This document shows, piece after piece, positions 1,274 to 33,942 of a stretch of 34,741 nucleotides of DNA. This DNA is from Mesaphorura yosii (Eukaryota; Arthropoda; Collembola; Poduromorpha; Tullbergiidae): the NCBI GenBank assembly GCA_009869945.1, contig WIXG01000593.1, positions 1-34,741 of the forward strand. Direction: 5' to 3'. The first letter of the stretch is position 1, and each line of letters starts with the position of its first letter. The position numbers were made by a program, and so were the translations under genes. The notes beneath the pieces are model-generated. The model was given only the letters and a program-made list of their open reading frames with translations. It did not search any database and was not told the DNA's origin.

Positions 1274-2583
1274 ATGACCCGAAGTTGGCGTGTCCCACTC
1301 TTCACCGTCGCCGCCTTTCTCGTCGTTTTCTGGTACGGGACACTGACAAATTATTACTCCACGAAACCTGAACGCGGACCACCCAGCGCCAGCGGTGCGG
1401 GTTTGGACGATGACCTGCTTTATAACATTTCACAGCGAGATTCAATCTTGTCGCAATGGCCCTGGTCAAGTCAGGCGCGAAAGAGACCGCGTCCTGCGCC
1501 GGTCCCCCGTCGGAAGGTGATCCTATTCAGCACACAACCTTATTTGGGCTCCAAACACTTCGCAAAGCTCCCGCAAGCCGAAGCGCTGTGTCCCGCTTGC
1601 ATTTTCACGGATGACCACTCGCTCTGGGATCAGGCGGATGCCGTGCTGTTCAACGGCGACTTCCTCCCGGAAAAACCCCCGGCAAGACGAGCTGGGCGGG
1701 AACAGATTTGGATTTACTATTACCGGGAAGCCGTCACATGGATGAGGAAACAGGCGATGGACAGAATGGACAATTACAAGCAGTTGTTTAATTGGACGAT
1801 GAGTTACAGACGGGATTCTGATGTCTGGATGCCGTACGCCCACGTATGGCGGGAACAAGAGGAGTTTGACGAGGAGGCGGTCCTGAAGCGGTTCGGGTTC
1901 GTGTATTTCCGCAAATTCTCAGAATTCTGAATAACGCGACTACGTTTTGCAGGAACAAAACGAAGCTCATCGCGTGGATCGTGTCCAACTGCAATTCGCA
2001 AAGTGAGCGAGGTCAACTGGTGACCAACCTTCAGGCGCACATTCCCGTAGACGTTTACGGGAAATGCGGACCGCTGAAATGCGCCAAAGACCGGGCTCAC
2101 TCTCTTGGAACGGACTGCAGGCAGGAGCTTGCCAAGTCCTACAGGTTTTACTTCGCCGCGGAAAATTCCCTGTGCCAGGACTACGTGACGGAGAAATTCT
2201 ACGACGTGCTCGAGACTGACATGGTCCCAATCGTTTACAGCGCTGTGCGAGATTACGAGGTGCTGGGAATCCCGAATGGATCCTATATAAACGTAGCTGA
2301 TTTCTCCACGGTGAAGGAACTGGCGGACCAGATCCTTTGGCTGAGTGAACACCCTGCCGAGTATGTCGCCATGCTTAAGGCGAGGGCGGGGATCAAGAAA
2401 AGTACGGCGACGGAAATATTTTGGTGCAGAATATGTGAAAAATTGTACGCCATCACGGGGCCGAATTCTACGGGTGAGAGTCACTCGTACGAAGATGTGA
2501 GAGAATGGTGGCGCGTCGGGATGGATGCCGGGCGGCCAATGTGCCCTGACCCGCCCAAAATGGCAAGGAAAACGAAATCATGA
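1274..2583 (+). CDS. Alpha-(1,3)-fucosyltransferase (glycosyltransferase family 10)
   Basis: This is a Golgi type II membrane enzyme expected to move fucose from GDP-fucose to N-acetylglucosamine on N-glycans or other glycans. A short cytosolic tail (MTRSWR) is followed by a signal-anchor helix at about residues 7-25, then a stem and the catalytic domain. The family signature FNWTMSYRRDSDVWMPY is at residues 172-188 and carries an NWT glycosylation sequon. The second signature, YFAAENSLCQDYVTEKFYD, is in exon 2. Exon 1 runs from 1274 to about 1902 and exon 2 from 1953 (acceptor TTTTGCAG) to the TGA at 2581-2583. Donors at 1891, 1897 and 1903 all keep the frame. I prefer 1903 (GTATTT), which gives about 419 residues, normal for GT10. 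AATAAA is at 2633. The family is certain, but the exact linkage specificity cannot be told. Confidence 0.93.
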
Positions 2584-2632
2584 CCTTGATCTTGACTTTC
2601 GCGCTGTGCTGCACACACACGCAAATTTTCTC

Positions 2633-2638
2633 AATAAA
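2633..2638 (+). terminator. Polyadenylation signal of the fucosyltransferase gene
   Basis: AATAAA lies 50 nt after the stop codon, which is a normal 3' UTR length for a compact gene. Confidence 0.7.
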
Positions 2639-2689
2639 TTGAGTTTTATTTCCAAATTCATTTACTTCAAACCATAATTCCACATCGCT

Positions 2690-3180
2690 AACAAAACTTA
2701 GATCCGGCTATGGAAGCCATCGCTCGACGCTTTAATGAGCAAAGAGAAACAAAAATTGCGGTAATTTTGTTGCACACAAAGTTTGTGAGTGAAAACTGCA
2801 GTAACCGTAAATATACCTCAATTCTTTCTTTCTCAAATACTCTCTTTTATTCTGATTCGTAAATTCAGTATTTACATTTAATTATTGACCACAAATTATT
2901 GTATTCGTATTCAAATGTGGTAATACAAATTATTATTGATCTTTGCATTACCTTTGTAGATAGTTGTAGATTTTCAAAGAATCACAAGCCTGGTCAAACT
3001 TACTCAATTGCAGAACGCAGGTACACAGGTAGTTTTTGATTCTTCAAAGCTCCAAGAGTTCAAATTACCTTTTCCTTATTGCTGATGAAGTTCTTAGCCT
3101 GAGTCTTAAATTACTGGTAAAAGAATGTGCTCGCCCCAAAAAGGTGTGAGGCGAAATTTTCCAATTTCCAAGATACCTTG
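2690..3180. other. Convergent intergenic spacer
   Basis: This AT-rich spacer separates the 3' ends of the fucosyltransferase (+) and the GPCR (-). On the - strand an AATAAA (TTTATT at 2846-2851) is a candidate end for the GPCR transcript. I see no open frame worth calling. Confidence 0.5.
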
Positions 3181-3182
3181 AC

Positions 3183-4901
3183 TCAATTAGCCATTGTTGT
3201 AATCTCCGAGACATTTGTTGGAGGTCCGCCTGTTCCTTTCTGTATAGGCAAGAAGAAGGCAAGGCTCATTTTAATCGTTTCCAGTTGAATTGGCAAATTA
3301 ACCAGTTCGCAAGCAAAACTCACCTTCGACAAATTGAATCGATTCGAGCTTCGTGATGTCGAATCGCTTTTGCTCATTTCAATGCGGAGAGTCGAGCAGC
3401 ACGAGCGACTCGTCAGCAGCGCCTGTCCATTGCCATGCAATTTCCATGCCAATTCAGTGATGGTAGAAAGAAGGTCGCTCTTATATGAACTTATAAACTC
3501 TGCACTCACCTTGAATCCAAGCCTGTACTTCTTATTGAAGAACGCGTACAGTATGGGATTGATGCAAGAGTTGGAGCTCCCCAACCACTGAGCCATCGGC
3601 GCAATCGTCCGGATCAGCTGATCTTCCCACTCGCTAATGGGATGGGATCCAAGTTTGAGTCGTGCGAAGAGTGCGTACAGCGGGAGCCACGACATTGCAA
3701 AGAGGATGACGACGAGAAGGAGCATTTTGATTACTTTCATTTTTGATCTGCACATATTAATTTAATTATGTGTAGGTTATTTTGCTTGACTCTCGCAATC
3801 TCAATTCACAATTCACGGCGAACCTCTGAACGAGAAGCTCTGTGGATGCATCCTTCGTCTCCTGTGGAATATGTCGGCATGACACCCTCCGCAGGATGAG
3901 TGCATAACAAATTGTGATCAGGATTAGTGGAAGGAGATAGCAAAGTATTAAATGGGCTACCACAAAGTACAGGTGACCGGCGGTCGGATTGGGCCACTCT
4001 TCAGTGCAGATCTGGGAACGAGAAGCGAAAGCGATAAGCGAATGGGAGGTGAATTCTGGTGTGGAGATCAGCTTAAGAAAATTAAGAAATACCAGAAAAT
4101 CACTCTGCTGCCCATTCAGAGCCCGGAGTTTGAAGAACATTGCCCATGGAATCGTGATCGTCATGGAGAAACTCCAAATGATGAGTATGATGAGGCGACA
4201 GTTCCTGAAGGAGATTTGGCATTTCATCGGATGGCAGATTGCGAGGTAGCGTTCAGTGGCAATTGCTATCAGTGTGTCAATGCTGGCCGATACGCTCACT
4301 CCTTGCAAGTACGGGACAATCTTGCATATCCATTCGCCAAGGATCCAGGCTGCATGTAATTAGGAAATTACAACAATTAACCGTGTAATGAACTTAAGCC
4401 TTTACTTAGTGCTAAGCTAAACTCACATGAATACAGGTTAGCTACCAACGTCGTAGGTAGGCAGAGGATAATCACGAGCAGGTCAGCGCACGCGAGGTTT
4501 GCAATGAAGAAATTCGTCGGGGTCCGCATCCTAGGCGAGCGGACCACGACTGCAACGACGAAGGAGTTTCCCACGATGCCAATGAAGAAGATGAGAGCGT
4601 ATGCGAGACATAAAAAGATGCCGAGCTCGAATGAGACGCGGAATTCGGAGACGACTTCGAGCTGGGAGAGGAGTCCGTCTTCGTTGTAGTTGTAGTCGGC
4701 TCCTCCACTGCTGCTTTCATTTGAAAGAATCTTAGTTGCGCTGCTCCTGCTGAGCATCGGCGGGATTGCCATTGCCTCCTGCGGGCGTGACCAACTCGTG
4801 TTGACATCTTTTAAGTCGTGGTGGTGGACGACGCTGTCCAGTTCAACACTGTTTGGCTCGGCCCAGTGACTGTCGAAGTGTGTGTCACTTTCCATTGCCA
4901 T
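3183..4901 (-). CDS. SIFaR: Neuropeptide GPCR, SIFamide-receptor-like
   Basis: This is a class A seven-helix receptor for an amidated neuropeptide at the neuronal plasma membrane. The six inferred exons on the - strand are 4901-4427, 4349-4093, 4011-3824, 3747-3510, 3422-3324 and 3239-3183. They keep the frame and give 437 residues. Key motifs are GNSFV in TM1 (111-115), NLACADLL in TM2, ERYLAICHP at the end of TM3, WLPLY in TM6, and NSCINPILYAFF in TM7. The segments MRTPTNFFIANLA, CKIVPYLQGVSVSAS, PMKCQIS, IPWAMFF and FARLKLG match my knowledge of insect SIFamide/NPFF-type receptors. The tail has a CC pair suited to palmitoylation. The first in-frame ATG is at 4901; non-coding 5' exons may lie upstream. 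An orexin/allatotropin-type relative is the main alternative. Confidence 0.85.
4012..4092 (-). other. In-frame 81-nt intron inside the GPCR
   Basis: On the - strand this stretch starts GTATTT and ends in a pyrimidine-rich acceptor (CGCTTCTCGTTCCCAG). It is a multiple of three with no stop, so a plain ORF reading would absorb it as 27 extra residues. Removing it joins QQSDFL to ICTEEWP, restoring the compact second extracellular loop with its conserved Cys before the E-WP motif. Confidence 0.75.
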
Positions 4902-4925
4902 CCTGTCTTTTATCCGCACCAGCAC

Positions 4926-13718: not shown

Positions 13719-16700
13719 TTAAAATGTTTCTGAATGACAACGGAATTCTGCCTCATGTTCTCTCGATGTCTCCAAATTGATTTGTTGGCATGCCTCCTCC
13801 ACACTCTTGGCCATTGGCGGTGGACCACATGCAAATACTCCGAATTTCAACACCTTCGGATGTGTCTTCTTAACCTCCCTGAAGAAACCGTTAAAGTCAG
13901 GACGCCCGAAATGTGTGCTAGACTTAAGGCCAGTGAGAAGTGATCGGTTCTTGAATTGAAATTCACGCTCAAACACATGCTGTAGGCACAAATCAAAGAA
14001 ATAAATGTGTTAGCAAAGGGTACAGAAACAGAAACTAGTTGACTAGTTGTCCACTTACGAGCAAAAGAGTGCGGAGGTCAAACTGGGTCTTGGCTGCAGT
14101 GATGAAAATATGCGCCGTAATAATCCTCTGCTCCTCTGCCTCTTTAATAATATCCACCAGCCACTCGAACTGACGCTGTGATCTCGTGACCCAGATAAAA
14201 TATACCTTCTTGCATTCACGAGGTCGGGAGCTGGTTGACGCGAGTTCTTTCAGGATAGAGGCGAATGGCGTCACTCCAATACCACCTCCAACGAGGACAG
14301 AGACTTCGAAACGATGCCAGTCTTGATGTGCTTCGCCGTAAGGTCCATCCAGGAAAATGCTTGGAAGAGAATGTTCATACGTACGACGGAGGTTGTGAGT
14401 GAATGGACCAACAGCACGAATATGCAGAGTCAGGAAGTGGTCATCTGGGCCGGAGGTGAGAGTGAAAGGGTGGAATTCGGAGCTGTTGAGTGCAGAGCAT
14501 GCAATACGCACCCATTGGCCAGAACGGAACTCGAATCCCGTTGGACGTACGAATTTGAGCCTTGTGACGCCAGAAGGCAGGAGGTCAGCTTCGAGCACCA
14601 CGAGTTCCGTAAATTGTCGACTGAACGTGACAAGTTTGTCGAAAACGAAGAGTACAAGTGGTCCGATGAGGAAATTCAGGAAGAGTGGAGCCTGGACGAG
14701 TTGACCTGAGCCATGGAGTAGCATGAGAGCGTACCAAAGAGGGTAACTTTGATGAGTGAGCCAAAAGAGTCGGTATGCATGTCTCCGTGCAATTGGTGTA
14801 GCAAAAGTAAAAATGACAGCTGCATGAAGCACGAGCAGAATTCCCGAAAGTCCAGTCACCGTCTTGAAAGCCCAGTAATGGAATTTAGGGAGAGCATGCG
14901 TTGGCCGGAAGTAATCCCTAAAGATGCATGCCAAGTCATCCGCTGTTTGTGTGCAAATATTGTAAAAGTTGACGGAGTGTCCGATGACGTGAAGAACGGT
15001 GAAGAGAAGCGCTACGAACGCTACATACTTGTGAAAGGCGACGAACGACTCGAAGGGGACATAGCGAGGCAGGAATGATTCACGTAGTCGTGTGATGATG
15101 TTTCTGCACATGGTGACCAAGAGTATGGCGTAGCACCACATTTGGACTGATGCTGCCCCACGAGTGACACTTACACCCATACCCGCAATATGTCGAAATC
15201 CACGATGCTCATTCTCCGTGGAATAATAGTAACTTCGTTCAGCAAAAATGGCGACCGTGACGCAATTGAAAATGAAAAGCCAGAAAATTTTGAGACGGTG
15301 CAGTTCGAACCAGACGAGTAGCCAATGACGGCGATGCTGGTCGGAGGCAGCCGAAGAGGATGTTGATTGTGTCGTGACCTGAAACGGAGTCTCGTCCTCC
15401 TTCTCTTGTCTTCCACTGGGCTCTAGCACATGCCACACACTTTGCCTTGTCGTCCGGATGTACGAAACACGCTTGTTTCTTCTTCCAGGTTCCACTTCCA
15501 GACTACTTCCACTTCCGTTCTCCAATTCGCTCAAATTTCCAAATGTTGCTCTGTTCCGTGTAAACATGCGCTGAAAGTCGGCCAAACTTACATGAGTCTT
15601 TTGCCCGAGTTCAGTTTCCACAGTTGGCGCGACGCGGGCGAAAACGACTTTCGGATCTTCGTCTTCTGCAAGCAAACCGAGGACAGAGTGTAGCATAGCT
15701 TCAAATTCAGTTCGCGTCAGCATTCGATCCCCATCCGTATCGTGCATATTGAAAATGTATGCAAGTTTGTCTTCGATCGTGCCTCGTTTGAAGATGGAGA
15801 GCATTGTGAAGAAGTCGAGAAAGCTAACCATTCCATCTTTGTCTTTGTCCGCTTCATCAAAGAGGGTAGTCAACAGTTCGGAACTTGTATCCATCCCGAG
15901 AGCAGCAGCAAATTCTTCACGTGTGAGACTCACAGCTTCAGCTTTCTCCAACGCTTTCTCCGTCTTTTTTGAATTTTGGCTCGGGAGTGGATTCCTCCTC
16001 TCGATGGTCGTCGTCGTCATTTGAAATACGATGCGGAAAAATTGTTCGAGTTGTGCTTGTCGCCTCGCATCGGTCAAGATTTGCGATGGAGAACGTATCG
16101 TCCTTCGTATTGTTGATCTTTTTACGGCTGCACCCTTTTTGGATCTCCACACGACGAGTGGAAGACATGCACCGACGAGCAGGGCCACAAACACGCCCAG
16201 CAGAGAGTGAGTCAGTATAAATGAGAGTTCACTTCCAGAAAAGTAGTCGTACGTTCCGGGAGTGGTGCAAGGCTCCACGGGATTCTGCTCGGAGTCAAGT
16301 TGTAATAAAAAGTAGCACGTGGCCGTCACGGTCGAATTCTCAATCTTATCCCCGTCTTTGTCGTACATTGTTTGCTTACATTCGTCCTCCTGCCAGAGGT
16401 CAGGCTCGTCTGATATTGAAAGGCACTTCAGGCTATTTGTTTCGTTGTCAGGTACACGAAAAGGGTTACGTTGAATATCCAACTCCGTCATTCTCGTCAC
16501 AGACACGATCATGTCAAACACTTTCAGCGTCTTGATCCTGTCAATCTGCTCTTTACTAAAGCGTGGCTCTTCCCATTTTGTATTCTCGAACCAGAATCGA
16601 TCTGCATTGCGAATTCGTGTGAATTGATCTTTGATGATGGCACGGAAGAGTGGACCAGGCCGATCGCTTGTCTCCAGAATGCCACCCGTCCACACGTCAA

Positions 16701-18629
16701 TGTTGTTCCATGCGCTCACTTCCGTTTCACCCGAAGAATTATCGTGATGAATCTCCACCATCTTTAGCACTATGTCTTTTGGCGTAGCCGTCCCAGTCAA
16801 TTTCATGTAGTCGTCAACGGAGCGAATGCGTGGCAACCCAAAAGCTGCACGTGCCGTGTTGTAGTCTGGCGTCCCGTGATCACGACCACGTTGAATATTG
16901 ATTGCCATCAGGTCACGACGTGAGAATTCAAGTGGCCCAAATACACGTCCACGCAAATCTTCTACAATCATGTTGTCCTCTCGTTCAGCACGTTGCGATG
17001 CCATGCCCATGAGGAGTCGGTCAACGTCGGCGAAGGGCCGATCGTCGTGAAACGTCGGGTCGTCATCCTTTGTGCATTCTGGTGGAGGGTGCGGCATCTC
17101 GAGTGGTTCCTGTGGCCTAAAATGTATAATCTTCCATTGCAAACACTGTTTCGAAGCAAAATTTACATTACACGCATTGTAATTACCTCCAATATATGTT
17201 GCACGTTCGCACTGCGCCCTTTCCCACACTTTGTCCCGGCTGCGGCTGGTGACCAGGCATGCCCAACCCATAGAATGCGAGTCTCTTGCACTTCGTACAA
17301 GTGTAGTCTCGCATGTACGCTCCCGGAGTGACGAGCGTATGCCCGAATCGCATGGCTGCTGTCTGGAAGAACTGCTCGATTTGTGGGTCGAGTGCGGGAT
17401 CATAGCCAGGGTACTCTTCGAGTGCTTCGCCCAACCATTCTGTAAGCCAGTCGTAGTACACGATTGAGTTGTACGTGGCCGTTGCCCATTTACGCGCCTC
17501 TTGAAATACTCGTTCACCCGACCATGTTCGACGTGTTTCGTGGAGGTACTCTGCAAATTGATTGTGCCAGCGGAACAGTACCACGCCAAAGGAGAGGAGG
17601 AATGCATTCTCATTGCCTCGTGGATTGCCAAGTACAAAGAATCGGTCCACTTTCGCAGTCTCACTTCGCTCGACCCAACTGGAGTGATATGAGGGTGGCG
17701 GAGGGTTCGCCATTGGTAGTCGAAATGTATTACGTGAAGGAAAGTAGCCATCACCATACTCCTCGTCCGATGCAAGTTTGCCTTCAGGGTGAAGTGTCCC
17801 GTTTGGAAATGTGCGCAGAACATCGGACCAACCTTTTGCTGTGCCGTAAATAAGACCTCCATCCATCCATGGTGTAATTTCATTAAGTTGCTGTCGTGGG
17901 TTGCCTGGCCCGGACCCCGAACTCTGTGCATACCGAGACCGCAGCAGTGGCATGACTGTATGGCCAGGATCTTTCATGCGATACTCGTGATCTTCTGGGA
18001 TGGGAATATTGATGTATTCTGGTGGACAACCGGCTCGTTGTGCGTCGAGCATTTCCTCCACAACCTGCTGCCCGAAAAAGACGAGGAATGCTGACTTGCC
18101 AGTTTTGGACCCGCATGCGATCGTCTTGCCATTCGCATCCTTGCCGCAGGCTGCTGTACGTGTCATCAATTCTTTGCTGGCTGTGAGAGGATTGATGCGT
18201 TTGCCCTTTACAGGCTCATATGTACCATCCGAGTACACGGGCGGGACTCGGCGGAGGAGGGGCGTGTCTTCGGAAGAAAGGAGTGTGCGCTAACTTTAGA
18301 AAGAAGCAAGAATTTTAAAGGAAAGCTGGCAATGACATACCGACTGCCCCCAAATCCGTCTTGAAGACGTTATTATAGAATCCATCGAAACTCGCGTACT
18401 CTGGTGGGTGGTCAGTCTCGTTAGGGGCGATTCTCCCAAACTTGCACGGCCGCGGATTTTCCCTCACGCTGTGGTTGTAGTAAAAGCATCCGTCAACGAT
18501 CCACGAGATGAGGTTCAGTTTATTACGAGGATGTCTGCCTTGAATCCACTCTGCTGGCTCGGGTTTGTCACCTTGCGCAGTAGCAGAGACGCACAAGAGG
18601 GCACACAAAAGAGATGCACATCGAATCAT
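13719..18629 (-). CDS. DUOX: Dual oxidase (NADPH oxidase with peroxidase-like domain)
   Basis: DUOX passes electrons from cytosolic NADPH through FAD and two hemes to oxygen, making extracellular hydrogen peroxide for gut defence and cuticle cross-linking. The inferred exons (18629-18341, 18267-17187, 17116-14059, 13979-13719) join in frame to 1,562 residues, typical of the family. In order: a signal peptide (MIRCASLLCALLCVSATAQ), a peroxidase homology domain (RFGHTL near 406), a membrane helix near 755-780, two EF-hands (DKDKDG at 880-885, DTDGDR at 916-921), a ferric-reductase membrane domain with paired His, the FAD motif HPFTLTSGP (1339), the NADPH motif GGGIGVTPF (about 1400), and CGPP (1527-1530). 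In the FGQQVVEE segment the distal His (DHD) of true peroxidases is absent. The start at 18629 is chosen because a TATA box at 18707-18713 places the upstream ATG (18704) outside the transcript. Confidence 0.97.
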
Positions 18630-18706
18630 TTTTCTACTTAAAAGAGAAAAGAGGGTGTCTGAAAAAAGAGAGCGGACTAAGCTGGCCACCGGTAATCCAC
18701 TCATGC

Positions 18707-18713
18707 TTTTATA
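18707..18713 (-). promoter_or_regulatory. TATA box of DUOX
   Basis: TATAAAA on the - strand. A start of transcription near 18678-18683 (CTTAGTCC) leaves a 5' UTR of about 50 nt before the ATG at 18629. Confidence 0.65.
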
Positions 18714-19076
18714 GACTCATAAACAATCCGCAAGATTTTGTCCGTTGTCGATTTGAGGAAAAAATTGGGAGTGATTGACCCTGTGTTGGTTGTTATCTAA
18801 TCGGGCAGTAACTTCTCAGAGTTTACACTTACTGCTCGAGTCAATCAACCGAAAATTTCCTCCTTTGCGACTCATCAGACAGCAGACTCCAGGAATTTGT
18901 GTGCATTGCGTATCATGAAAGCTTCCCGCTAAAACCAACAGAGATTGATGTCACTTAAAAGCTAATATTACATTTTCATTGTGAAACCAGCAGTAATGCC
19001 AGTGGCTCATCAACGGATCGTCGCTTCTGTTTGACAAAGACTTACAGGTCACGCCATAAGTTACCAAATAAACCCA
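18714..19076. promoter_or_regulatory. Divergent promoter region between DUOX and DUOXA
   Basis: About 360 bp lie between the two TATA boxes of head-to-head genes whose products act together. A GATA-type site (AGATAA on the - strand, 18793-18798) is present; GATA factors drive gut genes in insects, so a role is possible but unproven. No open frame is present. Confidence 0.6.
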
Positions 19077-19082
19077 TATAAG
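19077..19082 (+). promoter_or_regulatory. TATA box of DUOXA
   Basis: CATATAAG lies 88 nt before the ATG at 19165, predicting transcription from about 19107. Confidence 0.5.
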
Positions 19083-19164
19083 CTTTCGCGCTCTGTGGCT
19101 GCCTTGGTTTTATTTCCGCGTTCTTCTCTTCTCACAGACACTTTTCTGTCCAGCAAAGTGAAAG

Positions 19165-20626
19165 ATGACTTGGTTCAGTCTTGGTCGTGACGAAGGCTTT
19201 CCAGCCAATTACGGCGAACAGTTTACCGCAGCAAAAGTGGACGTGCTCGTCGCTGGTCTTATCCTCGCCTTGGTCATCATCGCAGTGGCCTTCCTGCTGA
19301 TACTCCCAGCCTACAGTACGCAAAAACGCTGGCTGACGCTTTCCGCGTACGTGATTGTAAGTCTCTTCGTTGGTGGTGTAGTGGTCGTGTGCAATTTTGG
19401 ACACGAATGGGAAGTTGGGCATGTTTCCATCCGAAGTCCATACAAACCAGCTTCTGCAGAAGAAATGGTTGGCAATCTCGGTCTACATGTTTCACTACGA
19501 GGGATCAACATCACACTCAAAGGTGATCTGGAGCAACACAGCGAAGATATTACGAGAAAAGAAGTGATTGACTACAACGAGCATTACTCCTGGGAGTGGG
19601 CGCAAGGTCGTTTCGGGTTCGGACCCTACGCTGGACGTATTTCACGTGAATTTCGGGCAGCAGTCATGCGTGGGACACCGACGCCCATTCTGATCACAGC
19701 AGAATACTTTACATTTGACGGCGAAGGGCTTCGTTTTGGACGACATTACCGACTTGCGGGTTACTACGCACATTTCTTCATGTGGCTTGCGTTCTGCACA
19801 TGGGCCTTGACCAACATTGCACTCTTCATGGTCGTCCGTCTCGCATCAATCTTCCTCATGGTCACGGGATTGTCGCAAATCATCGCGGTACTGCTCTGGT
19901 CACAAATTCGCAATTCGATTGAGATTCAAGTTCCGTTTGAGTCGGCTGATGGGAAAGGCGAAGTGTTGCTGGTGACGAGTTATGGACCCGATTTTTGGCT
20001 GGTGCTCGGGAATGGCGTACTGTGCACGTGCGGAGGGTTTGTCATATTTGTGCTGGACTACTACTTCAAGGGAGCCATGTGCCAAGTGTTTGGCATCGAC
20101 CCGCTCTCGGTGTACGTCTACGCATACAAACGTGAGTTAGGGCCCGATGTTATCTTGCCAGTAGTACTACAATAACAATGTCCAGTAATTTATTGCGAAT
20201 CTTGCTCTCACAGCAAAGGAAGACGATGAGCCTGCAGACGTGGACCGCCCAGGTCGGCTGAATTTGGGTATGATTACAGAGGACGAGGGCAATAGTGTGG
20301 ACAACTCGGCAACCATCATTCGACGACGACATTCCGAGAAGGCTGAGCGTTTGCCAGCCGTCGTGCAGATTCGTCGAACTGCAAGCAGCGCCAAGTCCTT
20401 TCGGAATCCATTCTGGAGGAAAGGTCGAGTACCATTGACGGCGGCGCACGAGGAGTCAGATGGCGGCTACCAAACAACCCCAAGCTCAAACACATTAAAC
20501 ACACCACAACCGCCTCCTTTGCCCTTGCTTGAGACGAAAAACGGAAGCCTAGTCCTTGTTCTGCGAAGAGAGTCCGAGCTCCCGCAAAATATGAGCGGAA
20601 AGAGGCTCACTTCTTCAGAAGTTTAA
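19165..20626 (+). CDS. DUOXA: Dual oxidase maturation factor (DUOXA / Numb-interacting protein)
   Basis: This ER membrane chaperone is required for DUOX to fold, leave the ER and work at the surface. Exon 1 is 19165-20131 (donor GTGAGT) and exon 2 is 20214-20626 (acceptor CTCTCACAG), phase 1, giving 459 residues. Membrane helices are at about 26-48, 57-76, 203-224, 226-245 and 277-299. The loop between helices 2 and 3 contains a NIT glycosylation sequon (115-117). Family motifs are YAGRISREFRAAVMRGTP (155-172), AEYFTFDGEGLRFGR (179-193) and YRLAGYYAHFFMW (195-207). The basic, Ser/Thr/Pro-rich cytosolic tail of about 135 residues comes almost entirely from exon 2. It is head-to-head with DUOX. 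No clear AATAAA follows the stop. Confidence 0.96.
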
Positions 20627-21335: not shown

Positions 21336-24300
21336 TTAGGGATTAAGTATCGGTTGATTGGCTTCTTGTGGTTGACGGTCTCGCAACCAATCACAAATAT
21401 CTTGAATCTCATGAAACTTTTCCGGACTTGCAATGATGCTGTGACATGCCTCGACACGAAGCTGGTCAACTGACTTGTCTGCGAGGTAACCAATCACAGC
21501 GTAGCCCGAGTCGGCGGAGGAATTGACTAGTCTCCTCCCTTTGGGAGTCTGGAGCCTGTAGTGGTAGATGAGGGATTCGGACTCGTGCTCACACGAGACC
21601 AAGACTACGTACGTGCCTGATTGTCTCTCAATCTCGTTCGGGTTGTACTGTCGGTCAGTCACGAATTTAATATCCAAGTCGTTACCCGTCGCCATGTGGA
21701 ACATGAGGGCCAAATCTGCTGGTCCACCGTTGATGATCTCTCTCACCTTGACCATGGTCCTCTTGGACCACCGCTTGTCTGAATTCACAGTCTTTTCTCC
21801 TCTTTCCTGTTGCTGCTTGACCCTGGCAATGATTTCTCTTTTCTCCCGAACGATGGTAAACTCCTCAGCGCTGTAATTGTCCTGCACCTGGTTGTGGTTG
21901 TGGTCATATTCATCATTCTGAACGAGGAATGTTGTTGCTTGACCACTAGTAGTTGTAGTAGTACGGAAATTGAATCTGTCTTGAAGCTGTTGTGAAATTT
22001 CATCTACAATCCGACTTGCAGCTTGTGACATGACTGGAGAGACCAGGTACGAGTTGGCTACCTTTATTATCTGTCGTGTAACATGCCTGGTCACTATGTG
22101 GATGATCGGGGCCATTTCTTCCGTCTCCATTATGGTTTCTTGCTGGCGCTGGTCGGTCCAGTTCGGTTGCTTCATCCTGAGCTTGTGTTTCACCTCAGCA
22201 CATACTTTTCCAACAACGGTAGCAATTTGTGTGATTTCTGTCACCATTCCATTTGCCATTGTAATTCTGGTAAAGGAAGAGCCAAGAAAGTTGGGGCTCG
22301 AAAGGATTCCAGAACAGAGTGCTGACCCAACCGAATCCCAAGTATGAGCCAAGTCTGTTGCTTGTGAATTGATAATGTCTGTCATGACCTCCTTTACGTA
22401 CTTGAGCAACTTGGGTGACGGGGTGGTAGTAATCGTTGCCGTGGTGCCTACTCCAGGTTCCATTGTCACTTGCAAGTGCTCAAGCAACAGTCTCAACTCT
22501 TGATGATCTTGAAAATATCTTGTGACATGAAGCCCAACTTGTGTAGAGATGGAGTCTTCCACTTGGTCAAACCGGAAGTCAGGCAGTGTGTCTGCAAGAG
22601 ATTTAAAAGCCACGCTGTCTCCTGTCTCCGTCACTGACACGGTCATCATTTGATTTCCTGTAGCAACTGAACGAAAGTTTTCTGCAGCCAACTTGATGCC
22701 AGTTCCAAGTGTTTTTCCATTGACGAGGACAAGTAATGCGGTGAGAAAAGGTGCCCTGGATCCGATTGTTTCGACTGTCCCCACTGCAGTTCGTTGCATT
22801 ACTACGACACTCTGTGCCGCATTTTTTAGAGTTGAAAAACCAAATGACGTTGCACAAAGTAGTAGACTCACAGCCTACAAATCAAAGCCATAAATTTATT
22901 ATATAGCGAGTGGATCAGATTTTGAGCCTCCGTTCATCATTACCTTTTGTAACCTGTACTCGCTCCAACTAAATTCCCTGCTTGAATAAATACGTTGAGC
23001 CGTAAGGAGGTCGGAGCCACCTTCAATAATTAAGCCCATGCCTGCAGAAGCCCCGAGCCCACTGTAAATGAGCCCTGCACCTGCAGCCACCTGCAGCGCT
23101 GCCAGCCCCATGACCCCCGCCAGCGAAACCCACGGGACAAATTGGCGCTCGTTGAATGTGACTAGGAGGTGGAGCCCGCGTGAACGCAAGTCCCTCAATT
23201 CAGAAAGCGGTGGGGACACATCTCCTGAAAAAAGTTGTTCCAAGTGCTTCATTTCCGTCTGTTGAATGTCCTCTTGTTCAATATCCGCATGATCGAGTAG
23301 TTGGGAAGCCGTTCCACGTGACAAGTTGTGAACCTGTAGTACAATCTCCGCCTTGAATTGCCGCAACATCGGAATGATTTTCCTCACTCGTGCTTGATTT
23401 AATTTCGAGAACCCGACTGTCAAGCCCTCCGCCTTAAAGAGAACACCTTCCCAAGCCTCCGTGAGTAATTTTCGATCCTTTTTGAGTCCATATAACACGA
23501 TTGAGTCCATCTCTTGGCCTAAATTCACATTCACATAGTTTAATGAGTTTGCGGACGCGAGGGATGGAAGTGATGTTGAGAAATTTGACGGTAAGGTCCT
23601 GCTCCGTGCAATCTCTGAGTATCGACTCCAACTTGATTCGCTTTGCCTCCATATCCTGCTGTCCCCTATTCAAGTCGTTGAGAATCCCACGTGCATTCTG
23701 GCCGAGGTCGTAGTGCAGTTCAACTGTACAGCCTAGACTGGCGTCTTGCATGGCATCCTTGAGCAGGACGCCTGCCACGTCCTTTTTCCCACCACAAAGT
23801 TCCAGCGTGTAGCTTTTGACGGGCAGTGCGTCCAGTTTTTGAAGTAACTCGCCCACCTGTTCGTCCCGAATCTCAAGATCCACTCTTGACTTAACAATCA
23901 TGAGTTCCTTCGACTCGATTATTGCTTTCAAATTTGCTTTTAGGCACGTGACCGAGTAACTGACGTCTGGTAACTTGCTGCCGTCCGGATTGTGACCTCG
24001 TGCCCGGCGACTCCGTCCCATGTTGATCAGAAGCTTGTAGCCTGCCTCCGCTAAACTGTCTGTGTCTGCAACGTCAGCAGATGGAATGGTATTCAAAGCC
24101 TGATCACGTCCTCCACCCAAGTCCACGTTGTACGTGAGTGAATGGAATTTGAGGTCGAAAGAATCCCAATTCTGCCGCTGCCACTTGTATCCAACCAATT
24201 CCCGTGGCCTTTCTTGCAAAAATTGTTGATCGAGAACGTGAACAATGCTCGTGTCTGGTCCATTACACTTGCAGTGGACTCTTCGGAGTGATGCTTCCGT

Positions 24301-27300
24301 AATGTTGATGTTAAGTTGAATGTTGTTGAAGACGGTACCCAACATGTTGAATTTTTCTGTAAGTTGTTCGAAAAGTGCGTGGTTCGTTCCATGTCTCTGT
24401 TGTACAAGCATCTGTAGTACGTTGATCATGGCCATTTCTTCGTTCAGGAGCGGTAGGGCCTTGTGGAAAGCTGCGAGGGCATCTTCCTTGTAACCTGCTT
24501 CGTGTGTATTGGAGCGTAATGCATTCCCACGGCCTTTGAGTAGCACGTAAGCTTGTCCAATGTGTGCTGCTGCAGCAAACTTAGGGTCAACGCTGATCGC
24601 TTGTGCATAGTACTCGTATGCCTCCTTCAGCCGCCCATCCAGCATCCAGTCTTGACCATAATCGTGATTTCCCAATTGTATAAAGTAAAATACATTTGAA
24701 CCAAGCAACTTGGCCAGATCAGCAGCGGCGTCTCTCTTAATCTCTTCCTCAAACTGGTCATACTGCATGACTGCTCTGTCGGCGTCCATTTCCTCCAGTT
24801 CCAGGCGGCGGAGAAACATGGCCCACCTCTCCTCAACAGCTTGTAGGACGATCGTCTCGTGTGCAGAAGGGACCTCTCTTCCCATGATCAGTTTCCTGGC
24901 CACTTTTCCCAACATGGACCTTTCCCGCTCACGAGTGTTATACCGAATTGCTTGAAATAGAGCACAGAATCTTGTAAATAGCTCGTCCTTTGTACGAATG
25001 AGGTTCAGTTCCGTCTTGCGAAATATGTCCAGCATCAATCGCTCAGTCTTGTCTCGTCGTTTCAACAAATCCTTCGCGTCCTTCACTTGCTGATGCTGCT
25101 GTACATCTTTGCCGTCCTCCACACTTGCCGCACACACGACGAGTTGACCACTGCCTTTCGCACCCTGACGTGACGTCCGTCCCAAAGCCTGCTTCTCCAC
25201 ACGCACACTTTCAGGTAAAAAGGTGAGTATCACATGCAGCCCCCCATGCTCCTCAATCTCGTTGGTCTTGATGTCAGTACCACGTCCTGCGAGGTTCGTG
25301 GCTACAATGACGTCCCCTGGGTGCACTCGTTCAATGTACTTTTCCTGGTGTTGGTGGCTCCTTGCGTACAGCTTGACCTGTTCAGGCTTCATTAACCGCC
25401 GTAGAGTCCTGCTGACCAACTCTGCTTTGTGAATCGTTTCACAAATGACCAGAACCCCACGACCCTTCTCCGTCTCTTCCAGTACACTGGCGAGCACTTC
25501 GCGTAACCAAGATTCGTCGTCAATGGCCACCACATCGGGGTAACGAATATGCCTTCGTTCATAGATATCTGGTACCTCAACCACTTGCACATTGTAAACT
25601 TCAGAGAGTACTTGACGCCCATGCTCTGCCCCTATCGTCCCAGTAAAGCCAAGCAAGTTCCTACCATACTTGTGAAACATGGCCATGTTGGAAAGAAAGT
25701 TGGTGGTCACCGTCTCCGAGACCACACGCAAGTGATGTTTGATTTGGAGAAACTGGTGCAGTCCGTTGTTCCAGTTCGTACTCTTTTGCACGACGCCAGT
25801 CGTTCGGTAGTCGACTGGCTTGATTTGCCCCAAGTCTACAATGTAGTGTATGTTTTCCTGGAACAAGAGTGCGGTGAGGGCACTGTCGACCCACTTGCTG
25901 ACTTGTGTCTCGGCAAAATTCTGAAGACATTTCGGTAGTTGAATTCCGTCGCCGCCGCCTTTCTGTTGTTGTTTCGTTGCTGCTGATACGGGCGTAGTTG
26001 GAGAACGTGAAATCAGGCGCCGAGTAAAGTCACACAACTCTGTTCGTACAAATCCCTCAATATCTTTGATCGGGTAGATACGAGCAGCGTTCAGGTCACC
26101 TCCGCCAACAATGTATGCCAGAAGATTGTCAATGGTGAGTATAGCTTCAGAGTTTTGATCTGCAAAGACGTACGTCAGACGTGGCGCGTTGTCATCTTTG
26201 TCCTGTACAACTTGTCTGACCTCTCCATCAAGAAAGTACATTTGTCCATGTAGTCCAAAGAGATGTGTTTTGAGGTACGTGAGTTTCTCCCAAATAAAGT
26301 GATAGAGTGTATGTAAGAGGTCCATACCAGCCAGAGAGGATGAGAGCCGTGCCAATTTCGAACTGTCGTCGATAAACATTGAGTCGACCTCGTCAACGAT
26401 TGCGAAATCTGTCCCACGCCCACCAAGTGTCCCCAAGTCACTGTACGAGTCTCTCAGGTGGTCAAACTGGAACTGAGCGCAGTCACCGTATACAATGTTC
26501 TTGGTGTAGCATGTCTTAGGTCCTGCCACGTACCAACTTGTCCTGTCCTCGTTATGGTCACAAGTAATGCCAAATAGTCCGTAGAACTTCCTCCATTCTT
26601 TTGCATCTCGTTCAGCCAAAATTCCACTGCTTGTGTACACGTCTACGGTGCAACCTCTTCCCAGGCAATGGACCATGCTCAGCACTGCAATGATGGCTGA
26701 CTTGCCTGAACCTGTGCTCACTTGCTGTAACAAACCCTGTGCACGTTCCGTGCTGCCGTCCTCAATCGCCAAAAGACATGCTAGTATCTGTAGATGAGTA
26801 AGTTCGAAGCTTTTGTCAAAAGTCACGGCCCGTTTCGCTACGGCCAGTGCCTCCAACCCAAACTGACCCCAGTCCAGCTCGCCACATTGTTGCCGTGCCC
26901 GTACTTCGTCACTCCATACGCCAAACTCTGTCTTACCCCAGGTTTTAATCTGAGGAACCTTGCGTGTGACCAACAGCTTACTGGTCACTTCCCCACTCTT
27001 GATCACGTCCAGCCATGTCGTGAACTGTGCAGAGTCCAGGCTAGGCGATGACGGGGACTGGCGGCGGGTCAGCATGTAGCCAGTGTTGAGGTGTATAAAC
27101 TCATGCACAAGTTGTGCCACCGTCTTCTCCATGGTATGTGATGCAAAAGTGAGATCGTTGACGAGCTTATTACACGTGTCAATCGCTTCTCGTGTGTTGC
27201 TCCACTTGGAAGAGGGCAAGACGTCAGACAAAGAGGTCAAGAGCTGACTGAAGCGGAGCTCAGGCAGTGAGAAGTGAAATACATGCGAGATGATGCGCTC

Positions 27301-30300
27301 GAAGATGTACCGAGCTTGTTGTCTACCGCCGTTCGCCGTCGTCGTCCTTCTAATGCACACTTCGGCCAGTTTCAGCAATTGACTCAGTTGCAAGTTGTCA
27401 CCATTGTTCCGGAGGAGGCAGGCGCGCAGATGTGCCTCAAGTCGTTGCTCCTGCGTGTCATTCGTACTCTTTGCCGTTGTTTCTGTCGTCGTAAACATTC
27501 TAATCAAGATTTTCACCTTTAACCAGACACATACTTGCCGTAAGGATTTGACCTTGGCTTCAGGTAGGGCAAAGTCAAGTTCACGGTCCTCTACGCCCTG
27601 ATCTCCACTAAAGTCGCCTAGTAATTGAGCTAGTTCTTGTACAGTCTCCAAGTCCTCGACTACGTCTACTGCTGTCAATATGTCCAATATGACTTTTGGT
27701 GCTCCGACACTCTCGCATAGCTCCTTTGCCACAAGAGCCACAGACCCCGATGACACTAATTGGCTACAGGCGAGTTTTCTCGTGATTGTTTGTGTCAGTA
27801 CGCAGCGAGTCAGCGCAGTCACGGCATCGCATCCTTCAGCATCGAGTGCTCGTGTCGCCTCGTCAACAGAGGCAAGCAGCGTAGCAAGGGTCACGCAAGT
27901 AAGGAAATGTGAGCTTTGGAAGCACCTGGAAGCGATGCGTGTAGTCAACGTATGTCCATCTTCAGTCCCAATACTTTTATACAGTCTCGAAAGTGCAATG
28001 GCCAACTCAATCTTGCCGTTTTCTGTCCTGTTCCCAAATTTGGCAATCCAATTCGAAATGGAGAGTACTTGCGCCCATTTGTGGCGCTCCATTCGGAATT
28101 TACGGAGGCACTTGAGGTCCCAACAATCTAACGAGTACAAAAGGAGGAGGAATTTACGGTTGAAGGCGACGTCCCTTTCAATCTCGGCCCTGGCTTGTTC
28201 CTCCGTGTCAAATATCTGCTGAAAGACCTGGCGGGTCACCTGTTCAAGTTGAGACGGTACCGAAGCCGCTCCTTCACCTTCCACTCCAAGTAGGTTGGCG
28301 TTGAGCATCGTCATGAGAGCTTCGAGCGATCCATGTCGTAGCGTTGAAGGTAGTTGCCCATGTCCTTGACCGCCCAGTAGCTTGAGGATCAGTTGTACTG
28401 TTTCGTCGGGAATCTGTGGCGGCTCACCGCCGCTGTCCCGACGATTAACACACGCCTGTATTAGCTTACTGATGCAGCCAAGCACCAACACCTGCTGCTG
28501 CTCCTGATCTTGACCAAATTTGGAAAAGAGGGCCGTCAGTTCCCGCAACATTTTAATCTTATCTTGCCAGCTGCCATGTACCACCATACTTGAGTAGGCC
28601 ACGAGCACAACACTTGAAACTGCACCCCCTTGAGTGATAATGGCATGTTCAAGGACGGAAGTCAGTTTTGACAGTTGTTGGGATGTTATTGTTGTTGGTA
28701 ACACGGGAGAGGCGGCGAGGAACGAGCTGGACAACAAAATTGCAATCTCTGGCGTAGACCACAGCTTCTCTTCGTCTAGCTTCAGGAAGAGGGTCATGAG
28801 TTCAGTCCCGATTACGTTGCCATGGACTCCTGGCTGTAATTGGGCTAGAAATTGATCACGGAAGGTCGTAGCAGGGTCAGGGTCGTCGTCCTCTAGTCTG
28901 GCGTGGTCAGTGTAGGCCAACAAGAGTTTAAAGAGGTGTAGTTGTGCTCGAAGTCCTTCAGACATGGACGGCGGGTTCCTGTTGTTCTTGAGTACCTCAA
29001 GCAAGACTTCTAGGGTAATGAGGGAGTTGAGGTCAGTCTCCAGATGCGGTACAAAATGAGGTGAGAGTGGTACACCTTCCCTCAAGCTCTGCACGAGTAT
29101 CTTATAACTCCTGTTTCGTACTAAAAGTGAATGCTTGTGAGTGACCATTGCGAGAGCAACAGCATCCAACACCTGGGAGCCTAAGTGAGCTTTTGAGTGG
29201 TATGTAAGGACCACGAGCAGGGCTCTCTTGACGAGGCACAGCTCTTGGTTACTTGCTTGTGTGATAATCTTGGCCAGACGGTCCTGACATGCTTCCAACT
29301 TAAAGATGTGCTCTGTTGTTGCAGCGTCGTGAACGACGGCGTCCTCCTCCTCGGTATCTCCCTGAAACTTGAATGTGATTTTGAAACCTTTCCGTGGTTG
29401 CGGTTGGTGGTCCTCCTCACTGTGCTCGGTGGATCCGCGCTGCTGCCTGTCTGATTGAGTGTCGCCGTACCCAAAGCGTAAGAACGACGTGCCTGTGCCT
29501 GTGTCTGGTGGTGGCGTGTCTTCGTCGTCGTAGGAGTCCTCACTCGATGACGATGACGGTGACCTACTGCTCTGGTCTATATCTGCATCAGATTCTTCAC
29601 TCGAAGACGCCCCGCCTTGCCACAACTGCAGGCTGCTGCCATTCTCAGCCTGCAGCTCGTCCTGGTGGTGGGGCTCTTGATCTGCCTCTTCCTCTTCCTT
29701 CTCCTCCTCGTCACAATCCCCAATATCATCGTCATTGAGCTGGAGCAAGCCCTCCAAGTGCCGCAAAAACGTGTCATCAATTACGAGCAGTACATCTTGT
29801 ACAAAGGCGAATTTAGTTCGAAGTGTGTTTGGTAACCTGGCTTTGTTATGCTCCATGAAATCGACAATCTTGCCTCTGACCCGTGAACTGGTGTCTTGTG
29901 CGCATTGGATCTGGAACAAAGCCTCGAGGTCCTGCGCTGAACAGTATTTGGCCCCATCCCAATTGATGGCGAGTAAACTCCGTAACGCCACGTCTCTCAC
30001 TGCCATGGCTTGTTGTTCGTCTTTGACCTCGGCGTCAGGGGTGGCGGCTCTCATCGCATCATTGAAAATTTGATGAAGAGTGACCATCGTGCTTCGGCTA
30101 AGGTTTTGGTTGACCCCTAAACCACGTAATGCGTCCAGAATCTCGAGCTGCTCTCCCAGCGACTGCGACTGCCTGTTCATATCCCAAAGATTTATGAATT
30201 TGCTGGTAATCAGCTCAGCCATTGGCAGCTGTGACTTGTGTGCGACGATGGTGAGCAGTCTCCGGACCATAGCTGCTCTCTCTGCTTCAAGTCCTTTTAA

Positions 30301-33300
30301 TTGCATCTCGTTTCCGGTGGTTGACTTGCGTAATGTCGTGCAAAAGATTGTGCTGACTTGGCTGATGAAATCTTGGTGCAGCAAGGTTGCTTGGTTGTTG
30401 TTTGCTATGGCAATCGACAGTGCGAGAATAGCACAGTTTGTCTGCAGTAAGTCGATTTGGGTCATCCGGAAGTTGATTACGCAATAGCCTCGCAGTACAG
30501 AATCGATGAGTGAGGTGGGAAAAGTTTGGTGGTTCTCTGCGGCATGTAAAAGACATTTCAATACTTCCGGTTTGCATGTGTTGTTAATCGTGAGCAAAAT
30601 TTCCGCCAGGTGGAGATGAACGTGTGACATGTGTAGGCCTGAACTGATGCACTTGGCCAAGGTTCGTAGCCCAGCATTGACAACATGGTGGGCCCTGACA
30701 TGCCTCATTTCTGTGGAGAGTCCAACATCACAAATCAGTTTGTAGACGACAGGGTGCAGCTGTTTCTCAAGGTTGGAAGGTGGGCGCGAGACTGCAGCGA
30801 GCAGGCGGATGGCAAGGAGAAAGAGGTCAACGTTTTGGAAAATGTGTTGATCCAAGTCTTGGTTCTGATTCACTTGCAGAAGCAGCCGGGCTGCAAATTG
30901 CCAGTCGTTGTTGAAATCTGACTGCTCTTGCGTAATGTTTCGCAGTGCCAACTCGAGCAATGGTTCAGAAACTGGAAGCCCAAACTTAGACAGAGTGAAG
31001 AGGATAAGGTTTGGCGCGGCTGAACTGCCATTTCCGCTACGATAAGCATTTTCTACAGCCTCCAAGCAGAACCGGGGTAGAGGACCCAAGACTTGTCCAG
31101 AGGAGACTTGTTTCCAGAGTGAGGACAAGATGATGGAGGCCACGCTCTGCTGCTCATGCTGATCTTGATCCTCATGCTGCTGCTGATTCAAGACAAGTGT
31201 TAAGAGGTGGAAGATGTCTTGTGAAAATGCGCAACGACTCGCCACTCTATGCAGTACTTGAAGGATCGGCATATTGACATCTGGCGCAAAGTCACGCCCA
31301 TTCAGTACAAGTTCGTCTCCTTCAAGTGCGTAGAGTTTGGGTAGCCAGTTGATGTGTTTATGACCAATTGAGTCAGGATGGTCATCATCACATGTTGTCG
31401 TCTTTGCAAGTTGAGTACAGTACACGGCAGTGCAATGAACTCGTATATCCGTGACCTGATCCAAAGTGTATGGACGAATATGGTCAAGCACAGTCATATC
31501 AAGCTCCTGCAGGCTGGAGATGACAAACAGGATTTCAGAGCAGAGGATTCGAGTCATTTTGTCTTGTGTTGGCGTACACAATGCCGAGACCGTGTCGGAA
31601 ATGAGTGCCTGGTCCACTCGCCGCCTGTAGGCACATGGAATTCGTAAGGTATTCACGCGTTTCGCAAAGGTCGAGACTTTACGGTGGATTATTGTAGCCA
31701 CGTAGGCGGAGATACTTGCTGTTGCCATTTTGTTGGAGGGAAGAGGAAGTTCCTCTTGCAGGTACACATGCCCTGCTTCATCGATGCAGTCTGTTTTGAG
31801 TAATCTGGACGATAGACGTTCAACTCCAGGAATGCAACTGACTTCATCGGAAAGTTTGGATAGGGTCACGATGATGAGTGCTTCCATTCGAGCTGCTTCA
31901 CGATTCGATTGGACCCCTCGATCCACGTTTTGGTTGCATAGGTCAAGAAGGAATGAGACAAGTTCTGTCGATGGTGGTACGTCGTCGGAGTGGTCAAGTC
32001 CATGTTTGTCTAGTGTGCGGAGAATACTACACAAGAGTGTGGTTCGAAAAATCTCGACTTGTGCCTCCGTCCACACCTCCACCCCCTTGGTTCGGGTCGT
32101 CGTCGGCAAGTCACCCCTGAAGCTGTGGGCAAACATGCGGGTGGTCCCTGCGACAAAGCTTTTGGTGGTGCCACCGTGTTCAGTTGAAGGACTTGCAAGC
32201 GGGGCCGACCCCGGGTCGTGGTAGATTTTGGCGTAGAGCAGGAGCCACTCGTAAGACAGACAACGACTCCCTGACAGTGACTGCAGGGCTTGGTCCACAA
32301 TCTCTGCAGCCAGTACGCGGAGTTTTGGTGCGTATATGTTCCTCTCATCTTGTACAATGTAGAGCATGCGCTCAACGAATCCATACTGATCCTCAAGTTG
32401 TTGACACCTCGATTCAATTACTACCTGCCTTATTATGAATTCCATGTACGACTCGAGAGTGTCCAGTGAATAATCCCTTGGGTTGCTCAAATGCTCCAAA
32501 GTGATGGGGAATGAAGTGTGCAGGTTGCTGTCGTCAAGGACGAAAATCGTCCACACAAGTCTCTTCATTTCTGCACTGCATTTCGGCGTCCGAATAAAGT
32601 CATTTAATGTCTGTTGCAATTCCTGGGATATTTTGCGTTCATTTCGTTGTACATGATTGCGGAATGCGGTCAGCAGATGAAGACGGCAGTTGGTGTAGTA
32701 GTTGTTCCAATCGTCGATCTGGAACACATTCATGGCCAGTGCGTGAATGACGACCTTGTCGATGGCTTGGTAGTGACTGACCCTGGCAAAAATCTCTCCA
32801 ATGTTAGTCATAGCCTCTGTATTCACAAGTATGTTACTGGCAGCATGTCGGATACCCGGGTTGGTCTTGTCCTTCAGCCATTCAAGGTCCACCTCCTTAA
32901 TCGTAACCTCGTTGACAGCTTTCTTCTTGAGCTTCGCAATGTCGTAACCCGTTGTCCTAAACCAAACACGGTCGCTACCACCAGCCGTCTGTTTCCTCGC
33001 AGGGCTAATCTCAACTTCAAGGTTTAGTTGTTGCACCAAACTTGATTTCTTGGTACTCAAGGCCTGCACGAGGCTGATACTTTGGATTTCGGTTTTTTCG
33101 GATCGGTTTTGTGTCCTTGTGGAGCTCACGGTCGTTTGTTGGGTTCGTACTGAGTCTGTGCGTACTGTCGGTCGTTCACGTCTAGTACGAGACTTGTGCA
33201 TCTCTCCAGTCAGCAGTGTCTCGCCGTTCATGTTGAAAATGTTGTCTTGACGACGACCCGCGTCTAGAGTTTGACCCGCAGCTGTATGTACAACATCGTC

Positions 33301-33942
33301 CAGGGATTCTTGTTTTTGAGGTGACGGTGGGCCACCTCCGCTCTTGGCCCAAGCTATGAGGTGTCTATCACTCTCTTCTCGACCAGTGGTGTCGACGAGT
33401 AACCGCACGTACTTTCTGTACTCAGACTCAAGTTGGGAATCGTACGAGTGCGACACGAGTGTTGCAATGAAGGCCTGGCATAGTTGTCGTAGGATTTCTT
33501 GCTCAAAGTATCCTGTTGTGTTGTCTACTGGCTGCAACTCGCCCTGAGTCACGTACGCCAACGATGTGGATGACTTGACTATTGACTTGATATATTGGAG
33601 GAGGTTGTCTGGTTTCACAAATGTGCTGTCGATTTGCGTCGCGTACTTTATCGCAGTCACGATCTGCAGATTGCACCGAAGACCATTGTAAATACTCTCA
33701 CCACCACTACCTATTTCAAGCGACGTCTTTAAATCCTCAAGTAAAAGAGGCGCAAGTTCCGACGGGAGGCCATGGCACCGTGCAAAGTGCTTAAGGCGGC
33801 CTGCGCATTCCAAAGAGTCTAGCTGCAGAAGAAACTTTGTAGCGGTAGAAGTCTCGTATAGGTGTAGCAGTTTTTCACGTGCGTCAGCCGAGCAATCAGA
33901 GTGAATATACTCGTGGAAGAAGCAAGTAAGATCCATCTCCAT
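21336..33942 (-). CDS. Giant SecA-domain ATPase with helical-repeat N-terminal region
   Basis: Exon 1 (33942-22944) is an 11-kb near-uninterrupted coding exon; a phase-0 intron (donor GTAATG, acceptor TTTGTAG) joins exon 2 (22874-21336, TAA). The product is about 4,178 residues, against 800-900 for bacterial SecA. Residues 1 to about 2,300 look like alpha-helical repeats, split by an acidic Ser/Glu/Asp linker at about 1,400-1,515. A SecA-type DEAD motor follows: Walker A STGSGKS (2409-2415), Walker B VDEVDS (DEVD 2517-2520), the AERDAKEW and GDCAQFQFDHLRD motifs, NNGLHQFLQIKH, GFTGTIG, AGRGTDI (2885-2891) and GRTSRQG (about 2921). A TPR-like segment (DGRLKEAYEYYAQAISVDP, about 3,100) and a Gly-rich hydrophobic stretch (about 3,606-3,638) follow. 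Near 23,540 the frame shifts by +1, so as written the ORF ends at 23434. Origin is probably an ancient transfer of secA. Substrate and cell location are unknown. Confidence 0.88.

Follow-up and report, generated by a model that had tools for sequence, protein, structure and literature searches.

How does a SecA-type polypeptide motor come to sit inside a giant protein of an animal, in a cell without SecYEG? This question is raised by a 34,741-nucleotide stretch of DNA from Mesaphorura yosii (contig WIXG01000593.1; "the window" denotes this whole stretch), whose main open frame, P0001, runs without a stop across 3,502 codons on the minus strand (23434-33942; all parts of the gene given below lie on this strand). 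The window protein carries a true SecA motor. As for the gene itself, we consider it on balance probable that it is a resident animal gene whose ancestor was the vehicle of a polymorphic toxin system, one belonging to intracellular bacteria and to their phages and plasmids, and that it now serves as a motor, a decoy or a modulator.

The motor core occupies residues 2380-2960 (25063-26805) and comprises two nucleotide-binding domains (NBD1 and NBD2) and the preprotein cross-linking domain, as judged by Pfam, PDB matches, alignment, structure and profile. Pfam places SecA_DEAD at residues 2331-2773 (1.7e-25), P-loop_SecA scores 8.2e-18, and the cross-linking domain is present as SecA_PP_bind (PF01043; 25.5 bits against a cut-off of 23.5, profile positions 52-109 of 110). 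The frame translation and the aligned cores contain the Walker A motif (VSTGSGKS, 26698-26721) and the Walker B motif (DEVD, 26383-26394) of NBD1, together with the NBD2 motifs AGRGTD and GRTSRQG (25162-25290), as in a SecA ATPase. The SecA motifs claimed by an earlier, sequence-only reading of this DNA were all found in the 23434-33942 frame, and most are also conserved across seven aligned cores (GLHQ is not retained in the Legionella geestiana row). Checked against SecA, and by tree and structure model, the identification of the motor holds: all 24 PDB matches listed are SecA or SecA2, and hhalign gives 100% and 2.5e-51 over 16-619 / 38-590. This local alignment of sequence profiles ends after NBD2, at model residue 619; the structural alignment of the motor model with E. 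coli SecA reaches model residue 760 (chain residue 821), taking in helices after NBD2 that possibly form a helical scaffold or two-helix finger (24706-25077). Three features set this motor apart from the SecA and SecA2 translocase ATPases: it sits inside a giant protein, its family is divided from 13 canonical-type SecAs in the tree by a branch with full support, and no SecYEG was found in the host genome.

To place the motor among its relatives, we searched proteins with residues 2320-3400; of 2,398 scored, 159 reached E≤0.001, and 120 of these were listed. Named among the matches listed are ostracods, the tardigrade Paramacrobiotus, the gnat Bradysia, the amphipod Hyalella, bdelloid rotifers, Hydra, gar, the mosquito Anopheles stephensi, Tetrahymena, Paramecium, Candidatus Megaera, a Rickettsia metagenome-assembled genome (MAG) and a gammaproteobacterial MAG. 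For Hydra, gar and Anopheles, the contigs that carry the gene are 58-94 Mb long. The sporadic occurrence of SecA in invertebrates and protists that had been noted before was seen; the family is large and extends, as had not been foreseen, to Rickettsiales, Legionellales and viral contigs. Among the listed matches of a plasmid search, Ca. Megaera was best (677 bits), followed by Legionella geestiana (248) and Ca. Bandiella (240); 37 further rows scored 138-173 bits and are mostly annotated as SecA or unannotated. The Megaera giant is 39.6% identical over 88% of the 1,081 amino acids queried and is homologous to the window protein in its N-terminal, motor and C-terminal parts. Judging from its further genes, which include a terminase, a DNA polymerase, RecT and toxin-antitoxin genes, the Megaera record (L026) is apparently a phage-plasmid. 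Two SecA-like genes stand there in tandem (L026:347-20815). The identity of 78.9% over 4,330 summed columns between the L026 protein and P0023 of Tetrahymena thermophila suggests that a symbiont element and a ciliate nucleus have recently exchanged DNA.

The relatives from intracellular bacteria and from viral contigs appear to be vehicles whose toxins can be exchanged, since their C-terminal tips are exchanged and two of them pair a nuclease with a SUKH immunity gene. On viral contig L110, which has a terminase large subunit, the member of 3,554 amino acids has a terminal WHH/colicin-DNase domain at residues 3467-3549, and the end of its gene shares 4 nucleotides with a SUKH-1 gene; the same kind of pair, a WHH/colicin-DNase end and an adjoining SUKH-1 gene, is found in L043, from a Peranema symbiont. 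These two were the only clear nucleases among 11 bacterial and viral tails scanned (L026 had a sub-threshold RickCE match, L028 LysM, L036 and L049 weak matches, and five nothing), and SUKH was found in 2 of 13 downstream frames scanned near relatives. The exchange of tips is most directly seen in pairs with like bodies. L110 and L129, a second IMG/VR contig, apparently that of P0099, are 92.6% identical over residues 1-3410, after which tip and neighbour differ; P0110 and P0111 (92.7%) and the Rickettsia pair L040 and L049 (87.6%) likewise have similar bodies and differing tips. An example from an animal is the tardigrade pair P0005 and P0006, which show 71.7% identity across 3,918 columns and then diverge into GIY-YIG versus kinase. 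Past the break point, identity in forced alignment is mostly 10-39%. Further C-termini include a lipase, and in three unnamed members an LHH nuclease, a Tae4 amidase and a phage lysozyme lie at the C-terminal end or close to it. The family as a whole thus shows a conserved body with unrelated C-terminal tips, whereas the window copy has no tip. We also observed that P0087 and P0089 have similar flanks around an internal block of ∼500 residues that differs, and that L110 and P0099 have a second differing block besides the tip; cassettes may be exchanged inside the protein too.

The likeness to polymorphic toxin systems as described in PMC3482391 lies in the conserved body with an exchangeable C-terminal toxin and in the SUKH gene adjoining L110 and L043; here, however, a SecA-motor giant forms the body, the host genome yielded no SUKH gene, and the window copy lacks a tip. 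That account, in the portion consulted, places SecA-like domains among the variable domains of Amoebophilus effectors, not as the body. Excerpts on giant secreted toxins of actinobacteria (PMC8195603) describe a SecA-like domain predicted to facilitate secretion, a likeness that we can draw by description only. The same holds for the phage-borne SecA of the phage WO eukaryotic association module (wHa_3920/3930), which is reported to be closer to invertebrate than to bacterial proteins (PMC5062602, PMC9203015); the passages on it contain no statement of a toxin-vehicle nature. For the Bodo endosymbiont, the excerpted text reports polymorphic toxins and mentions SecA only as an ordinary motor (PMC8163844). 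A toxin-like bacterial protein taken over by animals has a parallel in teneurins, animal receptors of bacterial toxin origin according to PMC13018210. Among the matches listed in our literature searches there was no account of an animal SecA-motor giant family. The domain content of teneurins differs from that of the window protein.

The tree was built from 171 sequences, from which 168 cores were cut; 44 near-duplicates and alternate rows among 48 unnamed ones were dropped, and 3 sequences were restored in pieces, leaving 103 rows. The 13 canonical-type SecAs split from the other 90 rows with full support. Within these 90, a group of 84 (support 99) excludes six rows, Legionella-type and other, that have frames of 962-1,831 codons. 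The window copy (C593) belongs to a group of 11 rows (96) with four further copies from the same genome (C762, C804, C918 and C546), tardigrade, gnat and unnamed proteins; a third tardigrade protein, P0004, lies inside this clade. Its sister group (97, 29 rows) contains ciliates, rotifers, crustaceans, Hydra and the Megaera protein, as well as the lysozyme member P0050. The host copies C67, C221 and C837 fall elsewhere, with Anopheles, a Legionellales MAG and another bacterial MAG (96), with gar outside (92). C918 is sister to a tardigrade protein, not to other host copies (96-98). Approximately unbiased (AU) tests on 40 of the 103 rows (LG+G4), with groups named after the first tree was seen, rejected a single clade of the eight host copies (p = 8.6e-55) and a single clade of 19 animal rows (p = 2.5e-39). 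Because both are rejected, such machines seem to have been acquired and kept by the animal more than once.

What remains of this architecture in the window gene suggests what it might do. The gene ends with a peptidase-like domain in which Ser replaces the peptidase Cys, and no C-terminal tip follows; paralogs C762, C918 and C804 keep the Cys and continue for 247-317 residues, where no domain scores above cut-off. A hydrophobic hairpin (23025-23123), detected by hydropathy, is conserved in C762 and in the Megaera, tardigrade and Tetrahymena members; it is the top hydropathy stretch in all of these proteins and the window's except that of Tetrahymena, where another stretch scores higher. In the mechanism we propose, the SecA motor would work without SecYEG, at a membrane that the hairpin touches, and would thread a polypeptide, most probably the C-terminal part of the protein itself; in the window branch, the payload would be freed by a cysteine-peptidase domain of permuted OTU/CE-like type that directly precedes the tip. 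Because the window copy keeps the motor motifs but has neither tip nor catalytic Cys, it would most likely be a motor, decoy or modulator that helps, beside the paralogs that have Cys and tail, in the handling of intracellular bacteria. The earlier suggestion of a repurposed motor, perhaps for defence or the handling of intracellular bacteria, is compatible with this picture. A bolder proposal, which we put forward tentatively and hold to be rather unlikely, is that animals run a polymorphic toxin system of their own: multi-copy SecA-motor vehicles would have been acquired on several occasions from the phages and plasmids that intracellular bacteria carry, their warheads exchanged in animal genomes (as in GIY-YIG/kinase, from one tardigrade) and turned on intracellular bacteria, with warhead-less copies such as that of the window acting as motor, decoy or restraint. 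A toxin-vehicle origin would account for the "protein translocase subunit SecA" annotations dispersed over animal and ciliate genomes, connect them with the toxin vehicles that occur in intracellular bacteria and their phages, and offer a testable case of toxin-tip exchange within animal genomes.

The copies within the springtail genome (93.0 Mb in 1,127 contigs) bear on a second explanation: toxin-vehicle genes could be selfish or transient passengers that enter hosts again and again, are duplicated and decay without serving the host, the window copy being early in decay. Patchy distribution and repeated entry fit this account, as do the missing payload and the Ser for Cys, the frame changes in a homologous stretch of the window copy, C804 and C546, and the short fragment in C874. 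SecA_DEAD is found at nine places, one of them in a 398-codon frame; the other eight, which fall into two groups (C593, C546, C762, C804 and C918 versus C837, C221 and C67), remain open over 2,999-4,724 codons although their aligned stretches are only 24-51% identical, and the motor motifs are intact. Decaying passengers are a real possibility, but an unlikely one.

Intact motor motifs, the lack of a payload and a host-like composition would also suit a fully domesticated ATP-driven unfoldase or chaperone unlinked to bacteria. We find this improbable, given the nuclease, amidase or lysozyme domains of relatives and the distribution of bacterial members, mostly in Rickettsiales and Legionellales. 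Among the best 80 of 176 matches in bacterial genomes, the top ones are mostly from these two orders, with some Bacteroidetes-labelled and other MAGs, followed by ordinary SecA. Within the order of the Peranema Rickettsiales symbiont (G002), a match at E≤1e-60 occurs in 26 of 262 genomes and in 22 of these lies in a frame of 1,242 codons or longer; in that of a Legionellaceae MAG (G003), 5 of 143 match, all in frames of at least 1,697 codons. Three Bacteroidetes-labelled MAG contigs with family members (L035, L036 and L037) may be misbinned eukaryote or symbiont DNA. Homology to the window protein extends beyond the motor. Its N-terminal ∼2,370 residues (26839-33942), in which Pfam finds nothing above cut-off, are homologous to the N-terminal halves of rotifer, ciliate, Hydra and Megaera members, and a 15-row N-terminal profile that left out the window clade found 11 of 23 targets in all, among them the window protein at 1.3e-45 (L110 in part; L043, C67, C221 and C837 were missed). 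P0005 and P0006 have N-terminal, motor and C-terminal parts in common with the window protein, and a peptidase-domain profile gave no match in L110 or L043; judged from sequence, the latter two are more distant from the window protein than the tardigrade pair.

Conventional export through a SecYEG-like channel is very improbable: the motor model does align with SecY-bound SecA (5eul, 6itc), but SecG has no match in the host genome (a control search matched 10 of 14 genomes), and the only SecY-family locus, in five pieces, is read as an intron-bearing Sec61 gene, in agreement with the earlier expectation that there is no bacterial Sec partner.

That the window gene is a resident animal gene is supported by its animal neighbours, an intron missing in three paralogs, host-like composition, the eight giant frames and animal-type frames near other copies. 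The predicted splicing of a 3' exon (21336-22874; open reading frame list and paralog alignment) was borne out: alignments of C762, C804 and C918 run through this exon and lack exactly a 69-nucleotide GT..AG insert (22943-22875) that contains in-frame stops. GC content at third codon positions is 0.542 for the window gene, 0.521 for the Duox frame and 0.540 for DuoxA. Ten frames near C67, C221 and C546 were scanned, and two match animal-type families above cut-off: an SHMT frame ∼4 kb from C67 and an ionotropic receptor channel frame ∼15 kb from C546. On the contig of C546, a further frame (L120:1586-3433) gives an SNTX MACPF-like match that is weak and below threshold. A contaminating or symbiont contig, for which one could cite that SecA is otherwise mostly bacterial (11 of 14 control genomes), is hardly credible given the intron, the Duox/DuoxA neighbours on the contig, the host-like third-position GC content and the absence of a SecG match, as the sequence-only reading had held.

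The total length of the protein is less settled than its 3,502-codon frame: a protein of ∼4,180 residues needs a bridge because the reading frame changes between 23,543 and 23,790, for which an assembly indel, a short intron and a real frameshift are candidates. C804 and C546 have frame breaks of their own inside the homologous stretch. The proposed 5'-UTR intron has a GT..AG fit at 34024-33960, a consensus seen by eye only. A TPR-like repeat below cut-off (24577-24663, Pfam scan) has a similarly weak counterpart in C918. No immunity gene adjoins the gene in the window, where the next downstream frame of at least 100 amino acids belongs to the DuoxA side. The ordinary animal neighbours reported earlier are indeed there: a Duox-like gene in several frames (14035-18704, minus strand; Pfam on 14035-17931, other pieces from the open reading frame list only) and DuoxA (19165-20175, plus strand; Pfam), which stand head to head (14035-20175). 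The best named DuoxA matches, 53-57% identical, are from the springtails Allacma, Orchesella and Folsomia; two proteins without a name outrank them, one at 96%. Elsewhere in the window (1274-4925), frames resemble a fucosyltransferase and a G protein-coupled receptor by eye.
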